Below are positions 30,251 to 50,031 of a DNA stretch of 58,358 bases, piece after piece. How positions within the stretch are numbered: position 1 is the first letter of the stretch; each line of letters begins with the position of its first letter. The notes beneath the pieces are model-generated. The model saw nothing but the letters and a program-made list of their open reading frames with translations, was not told where the DNA came from and did not search any database. Origin of the DNA: Flavobacteriales bacterium. GTDB lineage: Bacteria > Bacteroidota > Bacteroidia > Flavobacteriales_D > Sanyastnellaceae. The stretch spans positions 1 through 58,358 of the forward strand of contig JADFAK010000065.1 in assembly GCA_015665315.1 (NCBI GenBank), given 5' to 3'. The position numbers were made by a program, and so were the translations under genes.

Positions 30251-30916
30251 TCAGTACTTCAAGAAATAATAAAACAACTTCACATACTCATTATTCAACA
30301 TGATCAGTCCGCCCTCAGATTTCCACCACTCGTCTTCATTGTAGTCGGATGATGGTGCGCCGTGGTAAAGCAGCTTGGTCGAACTGTCGGCAAATGCTTT
30401 TGAAAAGACCCGTCTCACCCGCCTAAGGTGAAATTTCGAACTCAATATCATGGCCGACTGGACATTATTCGCCTTGCAGTATTCCACGATTTCATTGGCC
30501 TCTTCCCACGTTGAGGTGGCTGTGGTGAGTACGTCTATTTGGGTTGAGTCAATGCCGTCGTTGATTAAGAGCCGACGGGTAATCTCATGCTCGTACAAAG
30601 GAAGATCAAGAGCGCTCAGCACCGTTGGGATATTACCACCCGAGCACACAATTTTATCGGTCCATTGATCATGAAAGAGCAAGGCCGCCTCATTGCCGCG
30701 ATCAAAGGAATTTCCGCCTAATACGAATAGTGCGTCAACGTGTTCTAGTTCATCTTCCGGACTTAAGAAATTTCCCAGTCCGCGTAAAATTTGACCACGA
30801 AAAAGGAAAAGCACCAAAACAACTACAGCGAAGCGCGCGCCCCAGCGGACAAATTTCCTTGAACGGCTTTTTTGACGAATGATTTTTTCCATGACCACTG
30901 ATTTTACGATTTCCAA
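30251..30916 (-). CDS. YdcF/SanA-like DUF218 membrane protein
   Basis: 221 residues. An N-terminal membrane anchor (FVRWGARFAVVVLVLFLFRGQIL) precedes a DUF218 domain: HVDALFVLGGNSFDRGNEAALLF, DKIVCSGGN, ALDLPLYEHEITRRLLINDGI, ATSTWEEANEIVEYCKANN and AMILSSKFHLRRVRRVF. Family members (SanA, YdcF, ElyC) act in envelope or peptidoglycan-related processes in proteobacteria, but the reaction is unknown. The start could be the first Met (30916) or the Met eight codons later (30892). A 15-bp palindrome lies 35 bases upstream. Confidence 0.82.
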   Translation of the reverse strand: MEIVKSVVMEKIIRQKSRSRKFVRWGARFAVVVLVLFLFRGQILRGLGNFLSPEDELEHVDALFVLGGNSFDRGNEAALLFHDQWTDKIVCSGGNIPTVLSALDLPLYEHEITRRLLINDGIDSTQIDVLTTATSTWEEANEIVEYCKANNVQSAMILSSKFHLRRVRRVFSKAFADSSTKLLYHGAPSSDYNEDEWWKSEGGLIMLNNEYVKLFYYFLKY

Positions 30917-30950
30917 ATATGGGAATATTCGACAGATATAATTTTCAACT

Positions 30951-30965
30951 ATCCTGCAGCAGGAT
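30951..30965. promoter_or_regulatory. 15-bp perfect palindrome
   Basis: ATCCTGCAGCAGGAT, 7-bp arms around one base, lies between the DUF218 gene start (30916) and the end of the Fic gene (31015). It may be an operator for the DUF218 gene or part of a read-through hairpin. No T tract follows on either strand. Confidence 0.35.
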
Positions 30966-31014
30966 TAAATGGGTGGCTTTGCGCGATTGAAATTGTCGTG
31001 CCTTAATGGCTTTG

Positions 31015-31611
31015 CTAACTCCTCGCGAAATCAAGTAGCAGGTCAAATTCATTTTTGTCAGCCGCCCGAACGGCCTTCAAATACCTGCTTCTTGAGTCGC
31101 TTTGGTTTGTGAGCTCTCCTGTTCCCCAACTGAAGAGTTCGCGTTTAAATATTCTATCAATTAGTATGTCAGCCATCATTCTGCTGTGCCGGCCATTTCC
31201 GTTTGGGAAGCAGTGTATGCATACTATCTTGTGTTTGAAACGTATGGCTATTTCTTCCGGTGGATAGGTCTCATTTTCGATCCAATAAAGGGTGTCTCCA
31301 CAGAGCTTGTTCAATTCCACAGGTATTTGCCATTTGTCAATGCCAAGATTCTTATCTGTTTTTCGATAGTCTCCTGCCCATTTCCATACTGAGCCAAACA
31401 TTCTCTTATGAATAGTGCGAATGAATTTTTCAGTTAGAACCGTTTCTAGTTTCATAGATGATGTCAGCACCCATTGGAGCGCGTCTTCTATGTTTTGTTG
31501 CTCAAACTCATCAAGTTCTTCACGTGTGGCTATTGTCGGAACTAAAAGGCCTTCTTTTTCATCTTCGTCCAATGGGGTTTGGCCTCTATTGTATTCTAGG
31601 TCTAATCCCAT
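31015..31611 (-). CDS. Mobile mystery protein B (Fic domain)
   Basis: 198 residues. The Fic motif is HCFPNGNGRHSR, matching HxFxxGNGRxxR, with the preceding helices typical of the family (EKFIRTIHKRMFGSVWKWAGDYRKTDKNLGIDKWQIP). The arrangement and sequence match mobile mystery protein B (TIGR02613), which always follows an HTH partner, mobile mystery protein A. Fic enzymes transfer AMP or other groups to target proteins; the target here is unknown. The start overlaps the 3' end of the partner gene by 10 bases, so the two are translated together as a toxin-antitoxin-like pair. Confidence 0.88.
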   Translation of the reverse strand: MGLDLEYNRGQTPLDEDEKEGLLVPTIATREELDEFEQQNIEDALQWVLTSSMKLETVLTEKFIRTIHKRMFGSVWKWAGDYRKTDKNLGIDKWQIPVELNKLCGDTLYWIENETYPPEEIAIRFKHKIVCIHCFPNGNGRHSRMMADILIDRIFKRELFSWGTGELTNQSDSRSRYLKAVRAADKNEFDLLLDFARS

Positions 31612-32063
31612 AAAGACTTTGGCATTTCTTCCTTGATAAGTAGCGTTCTTTCTTCGATTGCCTTTTTGATGCGCTTGTAGGCGATTTCTTGGTCCTCGAG
31701 TTTCATTGTTTGAGAGGTTCGAGAGACTATTTTTTCAGCCAATTCATAGGCCTTTGCTTCGATATATGCGTCTAGCGATCCATCTTTTGGAACAAAACCA
31801 TAAACCAATTCCATCTCCAATGCGCGTGCTGTCTCTCGCAATGAGTTGAGCGTTATTGCTCCATTTTTTTCACGCGTTTCAATTTCTTGGACACTCTGCT
31901 TAGTTATTGAAAGTTTGTTCGCCAATTGTTGTAGCGACATTCCCAATGAAGTGCGAATTGCCTTGACCCATCCTGTTGGAGGATTTGGGAGTTCTCGAGT
32001 TGCCGAAAACAGCTTGATTCTTGACTCTAACTGTTCTATTTGTAGCTTATTTTTATTCATCAT
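31602..32063 (-). CDS. Mobile mystery protein A (HTH regulator)
   Basis: 153 residues with an XRE-type helix-turn-helix (MSLQQLANKLSITKQSVQEIETREKNGAITLNSLRETARALEMELVYGFVP is the diagnostic run, about 54-106) and a C-terminal helical extension. This matches the TIGR02612 family, known from mobile regions and always paired with the Fic protein B. The start codon is at 32063 and the first of four 33-bp-spaced repeats begins at the next base, so it very probably autoregulates by binding these repeats. Confidence 0.88.
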   Translation of the reverse strand: MMNKNKLQIEQLESRIKLFSATRELPNPPTGWVKAIRTSLGMSLQQLANKLSITKQSVQEIETREKNGAITLNSLRETARALEMELVYGFVPKDGSLDAYIEAKAYELAEKIVSRTSQTMKLEDQEIAYKRIKKAIEERTLLIKEEMPKSLWD

Positions 32064-32195
32064 GTAAGGGTATTGCCTGACGATTATTTGTCAAAGGTAA
32101 GGATATAGCCTGACATAATAGCACAAAAAGTCAAGTAATAGCCTGATAATACATGTTTATTAGTAAGGATATACCCTGACAAAACACATTCGAGG
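32064..32195. repeat. Four 33-bp-period direct repeats upstream of the mobile mystery A/B operon
   Basis: Cores at 32064, 32097, 32130 and 32163 are exactly 33 bases apart. They read GTAAGGGTATTGCCTGAC, GTAAGGATATAGCCTGAC, GTCAAGTAATAGCCTGAT and GTAAGGATATACCCTGAC. A minus-strand -7-like box TACCTTTG (32099-32092) lies at the junction of units 1 and 2. Three helical turns per unit would place bound proteins on the same face of the DNA. Confidence 0.85.
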
Positions 32196-32290
32196 ATGCA
32201 AAGCTCAATACGACTCTTGAAGCACATGTTGAATCTATTCGTGACCTGAAGGACATTCAAATTGGTCGTGGCTTAGATAGATTTATTTGA
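32180..32290 (+). other. Possible 3' remnant of a truncated gene
   Basis: This open frame without a start codon encodes about 36 residues (ending TTLEAHVESIRDLKDI...RFI, then TGA). It looks protein-like and begins inside the last 33-bp unit. It may be the tail of a gene cut by insertion of the mobile mystery module. The evidence is weak. Confidence 0.2.
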
Positions 32291-32423
32291 TTCGGTTGGC
32301 ATATGAACAGTACATTGCCATCCGCCCTTCGTTGTTCACAATCCACTGGTAGAAGCCGATTGAGCCCGTCGAATATCCCTTCCTATTATGGTTATTATTG
32401 TAATAGAAATCTACTGTTGATCG

Positions 32424-34766
32424 ATGAAGATGTGGAACGGATTGAACAATAATCTTGGTGGCGCCCTGCTGGTAGTCGCATTGGCCGTGACCTTTCTTTT
32501 TGTCTTTTACGGACAAGTGCTTTTGAGCCCCAATAGCTATTGTTTTAGCAGCTCGGGCGATGGCATCAAGAATTATTTCACCTTCGTTTCCTACGTCGAT
32601 AACAACGCTGATCTCACCAATTTCGAGGGGCTCAATTATCCCTACGGCGAGAGCATGCTTTTCACCGATTGCCACCCCATTATTGCCGCACCCGCTCGCT
32701 TGTTGCAGTCGTATTTCCCGTGGATTGGGGTCTATGGGGTTGGATTGCTCAATTTCTTGATGCTCTTTTCTTTTGTGGTGGGCTCATTTTTTCTGTGGAA
32801 GCTTTTTCGCCGACTCGACGTCAACCCTTTGCTTTCGGTTCTAGGTGCTTTGGGGATCATGGTGCTCAGTCCGCAAATATTCCGCTTGGAAGGCCATTAC
32901 GCTTTGTCATACGGCTGTGCATTGCCCATCACATTCTACCTGCTTCTGGATTTTACGCAGCGCAAGAATGCCATGCGGAGCTCCGTTTTTCTCCTGATCA
33001 ACGCGCTGTTCTGGTTCTTTATTCACGCCTACTTGGGCATGATCGTTGTCGCCACAATGCTGGCTTTTGGCTTGGTCAAGCTCGTCGTTTCTCTGTTTGG
33101 CAAAGGCAAGTTTAACGGCTCATTCTTCTATTGGTCGGCAAGCATTTTACCTATGCTCATTTTCTCGGGCGTTAGCAGTTTCATCGATACCCACGAAAAT
33201 CGCAGCGATAATCCCTACGGTTTCTTCGAGTACTACGCCGATTTCGACACCGTGCTCCTTCCGAATCACCCGCCTTTCAGTCTGCAAGTGGAAAAGTACT
33301 TGCCTAGTTTCACGCAAACCTGGGAGGGCTGGAGTTACATTGGTTTGGTGGCCATTCTCTGCATTTTCGCCTTCTTTTATTTGAAACTTCGAAGCAAGAT
33401 TGGCAATGTCTTTCGCGATCAATACGTGCCCATCGATCCGTTTGTGGGCCAACTCATTTGCGCTAGCTTAATCATCCTTACCTTCTCTTTCGGAATTCCT
33501 TTTCGCTGGGGAATGGAGTCACTTTTAGACAGTTTCCCCACACTCAAGCAGTTCCGTTCTATTGGCCGATTTGCATGGGTGTTTTACTTTGCGATCAACG
33601 TGGGAGCCATCGTGTTTATTCAGCGTATTTTTCACCATTTATATTTAGCACGCAGGCAAATGCTAGCCTTCCTTATCATGATAGGCGCTCCTATATTTAT
33701 GATGTATGAAGGGATTTCCTACCACCAGGAAGTCGGCGAAAATATCGTGCAATCTCCCAATTTATTCGATCGACGTACGCCTCCGCCGTATTTGGAAGAA
33801 GCCCTAAAACTCATTGAAACACAAAAATACCAGGCGATTATTCCGCTTCCGTATTACAACATTGGCTCAGAGAATTTCATCAAAGAAGCCGCGGGTTCGA
33901 TCTATTTGAAATCCATGGTGATGTCCTACCATGCCAATATCCCTATCCTCGGAAGTTACTTGTCGCGCACCTCCATTTGCGAAGCGAAAAACATCCAACA
34001 GGTCTTGAGTGAACCTTATTATGACAAGCCTATTGAAGCCGATATTAAGTCTGATTTTCCATTTTTAATCGTCTACAGCAAGGACGCCTATTATGCGCAT
34101 GGCGAACGAGTTCGAGCAATGGGCACGATGATTTACGATGGTCCAGAGGTGCAACTTTACTCCATAGAAAAGGAAATTTTATTCAGCGACAAGCGCAAAT
34201 GGGAATGGGAAAATTGCATCGCTTTAGAATCCGAGTATTGTGCACGTGACGGCTATAGCGCGACTGATTCAACGAGCTTCGTATGGCGAGAAACTTTCGA
34301 TCATTTGCCCTCAACCGTGACCTACCGAGGAAAAGGAGCATTGGTCGGCAAGAAGAGCGAATACAATTACTTGTGCGGCATTGAAAGCGGGAAGTTGTAT
34401 GGAGGAGAGGGCTATGAGTTGTCGGTATGGCTCTACAACCAAGGAGAAAATTGCGGACAAGATCGCTTGAATAACCTGGACCTCGTCATGCAGCAAATAG
34501 GTGCCGATGGCGAAGAATCGTTCACCACTGTCAAGCCCATGAACAGTTTGACCATCGACGGAGACTGGACCAAAGTCGATCTGCCTTTTGCGGTTGAGAA
34601 AGACTACTCCAAGCTCAATTTCTACCTCCAAGGAATCGGGGAATCGAATCTAGACATTGTCATCGATGAGGTGTTCGTGCGCGCGCAGGCATGTGATTGG
34701 TATAAGATCGACATGGTGGATAACAGTTTGTTCAAGAACAACCATAAGATTGGTAGTGCTCAATAA
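32424..34766 (+). CDS. Large polytopic membrane protein, GT-C glycosyltransferase-like
   Basis: 780 residues with about ten to twelve hydrophobic segments between residues 10 and 430 (for example GALLVVALAVTFLFVFYGQVL, VGLLNFLMLFSFVVGSFFLW, LLSVLGALGIMVLSP). A soluble C-terminal domain of about 350 residues follows. The layout, with an early SGDGIKNYF loop and a LNYPYGESM motif, resembles YfhO/GT-C type lipid-linked sugar transferases of Bacteroidota, but no family could be confirmed. The C-terminal part contains a galactose-binding-like beta segment (YELSVWLYNQGENCGQD...WTKVDLPF). The start is ATG 32424 or ATG 32430. Confidence 0.75.
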   Translation: MKMWNGLNNNLGGALLVVALAVTFLFVFYGQVLLSPNSYCFSSSGDGIKNYFTFVSYVDNNADLTNFEGLNYPYGESMLFTDCHPIIAAPARLLQSYFPWIGVYGVGLLNFLMLFSFVVGSFFLWKLFRRLDVNPLLSVLGALGIMVLSPQIFRLEGHYALSYGCALPITFYLLLDFTQRKNAMRSSVFLLINALFWFFIHAYLGMIVVATMLAFGLVKLVVSLFGKGKFNGSFFYWSASILPMLIFSGVSSFIDTHENRSDNPYGFFEYYADFDTVLLPNHPPFSLQVEKYLPSFTQTWEGWSYIGLVAILCIFAFFYLKLRSKIGNVFRDQYVPIDPFVGQLICASLIILTFSFGIPFRWGMESLLDSFPTLKQFRSIGRFAWVFYFAINVGAIVFIQRIFHHLYLARRQMLAFLIMIGAPIFMMYEGISYHQEVGENIVQSPNLFDRRTPPPYLEEALKLIETQKYQAIIPLPYYNIGSENFIKEAAGSIYLKSMVMSYHANIPILGSYLSRTSICEAKNIQQVLSEPYYDKPIEADIKSDFPFLIVYSKDAYYAHGERVRAMGTMIYDGPEVQLYSIEKEILFSDKRKWEWENCIALESEYCARDGYSATDSTSFVWRETFDHLPSTVTYRGKGALVGKKSEYNYLCGIESGKLYGGEGYELSVWLYNQGENCGQDRLNNLDLVMQQIGADGEESFTTVKPMNSLTIDGDWTKVDLPFAVEKDYSKLNFYLQGIGESNLDIVIDEVFVRAQACDWYKIDMVDNSLFKNNHKIGSAQ

Positions 34767-49945: not shown

Positions 49946-50031
49946 GCTAATTTATGCGTAACTTCGTAGGCTAATATGTGCGCATCGCTAAAAGCTAATA
50001 TGTGTACAGCGCCAAAAGCTAAAATCAAGAA
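49946..50031. repeat. Four 24-bp-period direct repeats upstream of the fic pseudogene
   Basis: GCTAA cores begin at 49946, 49970, 49994 and 50018, exactly 24 bases apart. The middle two share GCTAATATGTG and three copies are preceded by AAAA. The last unit ends in the fic start codon region, so the array covers the promoter and is probably an operator. No coding ORF was seen in it. Confidence 0.85.

Follow-up and report, generated by a model that had tools for sequence, protein, structure and literature searches.

A phased operator array before a mobile mystery A/B operon: a probable autoregulatory site of a putative toxin-antitoxin-like module with a Fic partner

On a Flavobacteriales contig, an array of related short sequences immediately precedes a gene for mobile mystery protein A, which is followed by one for mobile mystery protein B. 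What binds this array, and what kind of gene pair does it serve? TIGR02612 and TIGR02613, the models that name the two genes, are hypothetical equivalogs only in NCBIfam; the available part of PMC4750851 lists "mobile mystery" as a name only, and no paper on the A/B operator was found among open-licence PMC papers. We analysed the stretch of 58,358 nucleotides that holds the locus (the window) and compared it with its relatives. The reading that we favour, with a probability of about 0.85, is that the A/B operon is autoregulated with this array as its operator, and that it is most likely a type II toxin-antitoxin-like one with a Fic effector. The genes, the four operators (each found by a repeat search, a dyad scan and a dyad-pattern match) and the promoter box lie as follows.

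31602 to 32063, minus strand: gene A, mobile mystery protein A (TIGR02612), Xre/Cro-type HTH protein (profile matches, alignment)
31015 to 31611, minus strand: gene B, mobile mystery protein B (TIGR02613), Fic fold (profile matches, model)
32064 to 32081, minus strand: operator 1, nearest the start of A, GTCAGGCAATACCCTTAC
32092 to 32099, minus strand: -7-like promoter box TACCTTTG, fitting TAnnTTTG, with three bases in common with operator 2
32097 to 32114, minus strand: operator 2, overlapping the -7-like box, GTCAGGCTATATCCTTAC
32130 to 32147, minus strand: operator 3, the weakest, ATCAGGCTATTACTTGAC
32163 to 32180, minus strand: operator 4, GTCAGGGTATATCCTTAC

Both proteins score above the cut-offs of their families, A with 140.8 bits against TIGR02612 (cut-off 122.6) and B with 252.3 bits against TIGR02613 (cut-off 124.4), and the sole Pfam family matched by B at E ≤ 0.001 is Fic (PF02661). 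Gene A lies directly upstream of gene B, the start of which overlaps the end of A by 10 bp. Among relatives, a recognised B, in some cases broken, lies within 900 bp of A for 136 of 144 A genes, and the overlap is exactly 10 bp in 107 of 136 pairs; at four loci, A and B stand in one reading frame. At the junction (31602 to 31611), A ends in a conserved LWD-stop and B begins with MGL; the bases common to the two may account for some of the conservation seen at either end.

A repeat search of the window found one four-member family before gene A, with start-to-start spacings of 33, 33 and 33. Its 18-bp cores are imperfect dyads of the pattern GT.AGG.TATA.CCT.AC, the weakest of them (at 32130) having three mismatches, and the likeness between the 33-bp units is confined to a core of roughly 18-21 bp. 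In the dyad-array (symmetrised) scan, the array reached z = 21.9, a score that none of 40 shuffles equalled; in a plain equal-spacing scan it gave p = 0.005, the floor with 200 dinucleotide shuffles. At up to three mismatches, the dyad pattern matched four times in the window, at the four cores, against 1.18 expected, and at least four such matches arose in 1 of 100 shuffles. Two claims of an earlier note on this DNA, that four related cores keep a strict 33-bp period and that they overlap a -7-like box, are thus borne out here. A third, that the first core adjoins the start codon of A, holds in part: operator 1 touches the first ATG (32063), but the true start is likely the second Met (ATG at 32060), which is present in 80 of 80 aligned A proteins, and the gap is therefore likely 3 bp, the commonest gap among relatives (25 of 115).

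Across the 4.6-Mb assembly, perfect matches to the dyad were confined to cores 2 and 4, and those with one mismatch to core 1 and one unrelated site (on contig C12). With up to two mismatches, the backwards control (23 matches) exceeded the dyad itself (10), and the assembly therefore gave no sign of a wider regulon. Tandem Repeats Finder did not report the array in its run on the window; it did report short tandem repeats at 18 to 64 and 49970 to 50022, with 13-bp and 24-bp units. Between the array and the next gene (32150 to 32290, plus strand), there is an open tail, EDAKLNTTLEAHVESIRDLKDIQIGRGLDRFI, followed by a stop and with no ATG-kind start codon in view, which looks like the end of a lost gene.

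Relatives were drawn from the family and the phylum, from 80 loci named via B (the best 80 of 583), from five viral contigs (a scan of such contigs yielded five loci), and from 18 plasmid regions among the 235 plasmid records that carry a relative of A; the phage collection held no match to protein A. Upstream regions of at least 150 bp were usable at 141 loci, and, with eight near-duplicates removed, 133 were scanned, mostly from Bacteroidota but also from plasmids of other phyla. For two plasmid loci, the start of A was set by hand (L135, where it was moved inside the annotated gene, and L140, which is unannotated). The main scan sought equally spaced 18-bp dyads at lags of 20 to 60, with 40 shuffles per region, and z ≥ 3 was taken as significant.

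By this measure, 117 of the 133 regions were significant, and 115 of the 117 had a period of 32 (48 regions) or 33 (67 regions), the remaining two having lags of 37 and 46. At z ≥ 2, the period was 32 or 33 in 120 of 123 regions, and five of the ten regions below that level were still at 33. The best chain held two to five copies, most often three (57 of 115). Significance extended to 16 of the 18 plasmid loci, which come from Alpha- and Gammaproteobacteria and an actinomycete and include a Ti plasmid (L143), Bradyrhizobium (L136), Ruegeria (L142), Vibrio (L138), Shewanella (L144) and Euzebya (L132); L137 (z = 2.2) and L146 fell below the threshold. The operator hypothesis of the earlier note was to fail if other mobile mystery loci had no such phased motif upstream, and by these counts it survives. 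Its strict period of 33 applies to the window, but 48 of the 115 arrays use 32. Its proposal of three helical turns per unit, with all sites on one face of the DNA, holds approximately: at 10.5 bp per turn, 33 bp are 3.14 turns and 32 bp are 3.05, and successive sites drift by about 51 and 17 degrees, respectively.

Control segments from the same loci, scored with 20 shuffles, reached z ≥ 3 in 11 of 522 cases (inside A, 6/133; inside B, 2/132; far upstream, 2/129; downstream, 1/128), none of them at lag 32 or 33. Regardless of z, 32 or 33 was the best lag in 17, 1, 12 and 11 of these segments, respectively, and the resulting 41 non-significant cases of 522 somewhat exceed the share that the number of lags alone would predict, 2 in 41. 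Two other gene families of the same phylum were scored by the best of several windows per locus, which favours the controls. HipA loci of Bacteroidota were significant in 18 of 30 cases; lag 40 or 41 accounted for 13 of these, and lags 24, 28, 31, 32 and 48 for one each. A single HigB locus of 28 was significant, at lag 24. The scan thus detects operator pairs at loci where they are to be expected, and we regard 32/33 as the signature of the mobile mystery A/B family. A plain equal-spacing scan without dyad symmetry, which is less sensitive and was replaced by the symmetrised one, had earlier given p ≤ 0.01 in 72 of 116 regions, all with period 32 or 33. The operator pairs of the HipA loci (L154-L183), 40-41 bp apart in 13 of 30, are close to four helical turns apart.

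The earlier note had named the HTH protein encoded by A as the binder of the array, and this is supported by co-variation between operator bases and one part of that protein:

31893 to 31901, minus strand: codons K55-Q56-S57 of A (153-aa numbering), recognition helix (co-variation, hold-out)

The 434 repressor and 434 Cro align, as weak matches, to the same HTH stretch of protein A, and the matching Gln residues in 434 have a recognition role. Among 113 loci (the 115 arrays less L012 and L013), operator similarity followed overall protein A identity (r 0.64); corrected for identity, the column most strongly associated with it was Gln56 (partial r 0.44), followed by the residue after Gln56 (partial r 0.19). 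Two rules describe the 86 loci that have the key Gln. In the first, Lys or Arg before Gln goes with G at base 1, the outer base of the operator half-site (67 of 67 loci, against 0 of 19 with other residues). In the second, the residue after Gln goes with base 5, which is G in 34 of 43 loci with Ser and 3 of 3 with Thr, and A in 40 of 40 with Gly, Ala, Asn or Arg; the rule fails in 9 of the 43 Ser loci. The best of 112 columns was the residue before Gln for base 1 and the residue after Gln for base 5. By letter-by-letter association, the residue before Gln lies outside the top 22 columns; several C-terminal columns of protein A also reach the permutation floor, and values of 1e-8 are attained for base 1 by columns outside the helix too. 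Since columns outside the recognition helix score as well, shared descent contributes to the association, and the kinship of the loci also means that Fisher values should not be read as probabilities.

Pair contrasts and a hold-out set are the fairer tests. In disjoint pairs of closest relatives, the first rule went as predicted in 19 of 19, and the second in 37 of 43, with three ties and three pairs against. For the hold-out, the period and both rules were written down as predictions before newly fetched loci were scored; 35 of 39 loci, all from the phylum, were used, two being dropped because the start could not be placed (L254, L258) and two because their A was identical to a training protein (L224, L227). 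The A proteins in this set are 41-90% identical to their nearest training protein. The array reached z ≥ 3 in 28 of 35 loci, all 28 at period 32 or 33, with seven below that threshold; regardless of z, 32 of 35 had one of these two periods. Base 1 was as predicted in 24 of 24 scorable loci and base 5 in 20 of 23, the failures being 3 of 17 loci with Ser or Thr; unscored were four of the 28 that lack the Gln and, for the second rule, one more with an unlisted residue. By this comparative evidence, from co-variation and hold-out alike, the HTH protein of the first gene determines the operator sequence. Because operator bases track the recognition helix, also in unseen loci, A very probably binds its own array, a role that comparison strongly supports.

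The box TACCTTTG, which by the consensus TAnnTTTG we take to be a Bacteroidota -7-like box, has counterparts in many relatives. Among 97 non-plasmid loci (within L001-L130, mostly Bacteroidota by titles or lineage), 64 have TAnnTTTG within their last 110 bp, where shuffles lead one to expect 13.9. Of 70 boxes, 50 have their start exactly 6 bases beyond the centre of an operator, and these begin within the operator's final TAC. Boxes at offset 6 or 7 number 51, of which 47 are on operator 2; of the others, 14 are at offset 16, in the spacer, and five elsewhere. An overlap of sites and promoter is thus strongly supported by comparison. On the mechanism that we propose, dimers of protein A would bind each 18-bp dyad by a 434-repressor-like HTH, and neighbouring dimers, on dyads 33 bp apart (32 or 33 in the family), could touch, since the spacing is about three helical turns, and might bind cooperatively, as the earlier note proposed. 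With operators 1-3 occupied, both the -7 box and the transcript leader of A/B would be covered and the operon shut off. Because bound A would cover the core promoter and leader, we infer that A autorepresses the A/B operon.

What the operon does is a separate matter. In the favoured reading, B would be the Fic-fold effector of a module that is most likely type II toxin-antitoxin-like, and A would also inhibit B, probably by means of [T/S/N]MxLE, the conserved loop that separates the last two of its long helices. The most serious competitor, which we think unlikely, keeps A as the binder of the array but takes it for an ordinary autoregulator, and B for an accessory Fic enzyme that serves housekeeping, defence or a mobile element. 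Two further features bear on the choice.

31689 to 31709, minus strand: codons of A residues 119-125, the TMKLEDQ loop (alignments, protein A model)
31180 to 31215, minus strand: codons of B's Fic motif HCFPNGNGRHSR, with Asn for the canonical Asp/Glu (motif scan)

The structural model of protein B (mean pLDDT 84.3, pTM 0.81) has as its three best PDB matches VbhT solved with VbhA (3shg, 3zc7 and 3zcb; E 2.5e-5 to 6.2e-5). Its matches also list 8wt0 and 5jff, and Fic-1:AntF and EcFicT:EcFicA appear. This nearness to VbhT:VbhA speaks for a toxin-antitoxin pair, as do the weak matches of the HTH of A to the antitoxins HigA2 and HipB (and to the 434 repressor; best Foldseek E 0.027). The catalytic motif argues the other way. 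It reads HxFxNGNGRxxR instead of the canonical HxFx[D/E]GNGRxxR, position 5 being Asn in 126 of 128 recognised motifs, Asp in one and Ser in one, while 8 of 136 B genes have no motif match. With Asn in place of the metal-binding Asp/Glu, we do not call B an AMPylase, and classical AMPylation by B appears uncertain from its sequence. B also matches candidate PDC-S04 models of PADLOC (best 6.2e-19), another point in favour of the accessory enzyme.

For the candidate inhibitory loop, the model of protein A (pLDDT 87.9, pTM 0.65) has long C-terminal helices at 97-117 and 125-146, with TMKLEDQ between them; the loop is its least confident stretch (block 121-130, pLDDT 63). Leu122 and Glu123 are invariant in both alignments. 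The Fic-inhibition motif is [S/T]xxxE[G/N] (PMC5033356; see also PMC3667792), and in EcFicA, according to the available text, it reads SRRLEG and closes the first helix of a pair (PMC5033356). At residues 119-123 of A, [STN]xxxE is found in 80 of 80 aligned proteins and [S/T]xxxE in 66%, the full [S/T]xxxE[G/N] in 9%; the residue four before the Glu is Thr, Ser or Asn in 138 of 144 A genes. The loop thus resembles the motif in sequence without matching it in full. The solved relatives of A by sequence are HTH proteins, two unrelated chains match its C-terminal part (E about 0.4 to 0.6), and four C-terminal segments of A matched no Pfam antitoxin domain. Protein B has a candidate of its own: T/S-xxx-E occupies residues 12-16 in 88% of 77 B proteins, by which B could be self-inhibited, with this segment as an internal inhibitor. 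A more detailed picture, which we offer tentatively and hold to be possible rather than probable, would make A a two-headed antitoxin. One head would be the 434-like HTH, on a 32/33-bp array with a residue-to-base code, and the other a VbhA/FicA-like inhibitory loop inserted as a plug in B's active site. B, for its part, would be a Fic toxin that is non-AMPylating (or metal-altered), has HxFPNGNGRHSR and is spread across Bacteroidota, Proteobacteria and plasmids; occupancy of the array would report the A:B ratio. The open-licence PMC literature that was searched held no two-headed antitoxin of this kind.

Patterns of gene loss favour the toxin-antitoxin-like reading over the accessory enzyme, since B is lost or broken without loss of A. 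Among loci found through A (42 A genes, less L004, L011 and L012, which are cut by contig ends), an intact B went unrecognised in 8 of 39 informative cases (three broken, five not found), against 0 of 79 informative B-found loci for A (Fisher p 8e-5, a contrast between sets that come from different searches). The loci without a recognised A are L014, L015, L016 and L059, the last cut by a contig end; three B-found loci have a broken B (L072, L082 and L104). B is broken or partly deleted in L013, L008, L025, L033, L072, L082 and L104, in which A is open, though in L013 for the HTH part only, which a deletion has left fused to the end of B. Some loci, for example L030, L139 and L148, keep A and the array without an intact B, which suits an ordinary regulator too. 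A regulator gene that comes first, with the common 10-bp overlap at the start of the second gene, and the many plasmid records fit the accessory enzyme less well than a toxin-antitoxin-like operon.

A further possibility, which we consider very improbable, is that the repeats serve a mobile element in recombination, transposition or plasmid maintenance and are not operators. It draws on the abundance of the family on plasmids (235 records) and on a same-genus genome (G028:C262; L216, L218), where the two neighbours of the A/B module in the window, a DUF218 gene and a 780-aa gene (compared span, 30916-32424), are adjacent, their matched ends about 150 bp apart. From this adjacency, the module is either an accessory insertion here or was lost there, and because the same-genus intergenic sequence is too diverged, the exact insertion boundaries are left unset. 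That genome has its own A/B copy on another contig. Against it speak the position of the array, on the start side of A and in register with the start codon and the -7 box, and the way in which its bases follow the recognition helix of A.

Still less probable is that the repeats act as RNA, as in type III toxin-antitoxin systems (ToxIN), or as a CRISPR-like array. In ToxIN, tandem RNA repeats that are conserved over the unit inhibit the toxin, and a ToxI unit is about as long as the tandem units here, which likewise stand upstream of a toxin-like gene. In the array, on the other hand, likeness is restricted to the core of each 33-bp unit, the core bases track a DNA-recognition helix, and 30900-32500 has no Rfam match at the gathering threshold. 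As the likely promoter box lies inside the array, most of the array would fall outside the transcript. Membership of ToxIN was set aside, the conservation being that of a core and not of the whole unit, and Rfam giving no match. A chance or low-complexity AT-rich pattern, suggested by the AT-richness of many upstream regions, is refuted by the dinucleotide shuffles, the internal controls, the two other gene families and the hold-out, and its probability is negligible.

On the reading of the array as an autoregulatory operator, A gains a concrete, testable function as an array-binding autoregulator, and more than 100 loci gain an operator. The two-residue recognition code predicted operator bases in unseen genomes and would be useful for orthogonal repressors in laboratory strains. 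The result also singles out, as probable toxins or effectors, a large group of Fic-fold proteins whose catalytic motif is altered.

Among known systems, A/B can be set beside HipBA, in which the antitoxin gene comes first and the toxin gene second. It shares with HipBA an Xre/434-like HTH gene in first place, a partner in second, and several similar 18-bp dyads before the regulator gene. HipB binds cooperatively to four operators, TATCCN8GGATA, and in this way represses hipBA; in the O1O2 oligonucleotide the 18-bp operators are 28 bp apart by our count (PMC3376134, available text). Unlike HipBA, however, A/B has a spacing of 32-33 (28 bp for HipB O1-O2, and 40-41 at the Bacteroidota HipA loci), operators of another sequence, and a partner with a Fic fold and no HipA kinase. 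Membership of HipBA was rejected on that last ground, the Pfam family of B being Fic PF02661.

The class I FicTA pairs (VbhT/VbhA, EcFicT/EcFicA and Fic-1/AntF) are alike in that the model of B is closest to VbhT, that a small gene precedes the Fic gene, and that the [T/S/N]xxLE segment which lies between two helices of A holds an invariant Glu. They differ in that A carries a DNA-binding HTH and has the full [S/T]xxxE[G/N] in 9% of cases, and B, though of Fic fold, reads HxFxNGNGRxxR and not the canonical motif. The restriction-modification controllers C.Esp1396I and C.BclI are small 434-like HTH proteins that control restriction-modification genes from tandem operators; they are weak sequence and fold relatives of A, which, unlike them, has an extra two-helix C-terminal region. 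Phd-Doc pairs a Fic-fold toxin with an autoregulating DNA-binding antitoxin, but Phd lies outside the Xre HTH proteins, and Doc is a Fic protein of the kinase type. A/B is like Phd-Doc in joining a Fic-fold partner to a DNA-binding regulator and unlike it in that A is an Xre HTH protein; the seven Pfam families that are listed at E ≤ 1 for protein A of the window include no Phd model. In its available part, a 2009 toxin-antitoxin survey gives AbrB, Phd and YhfG as partners of Fic/Doc and notes no Xre-Fic pair (PMC2701414). From sequences and structural models, our reading of A/B is a toxin-antitoxin module that resembles HipBA and has a Fic partner.
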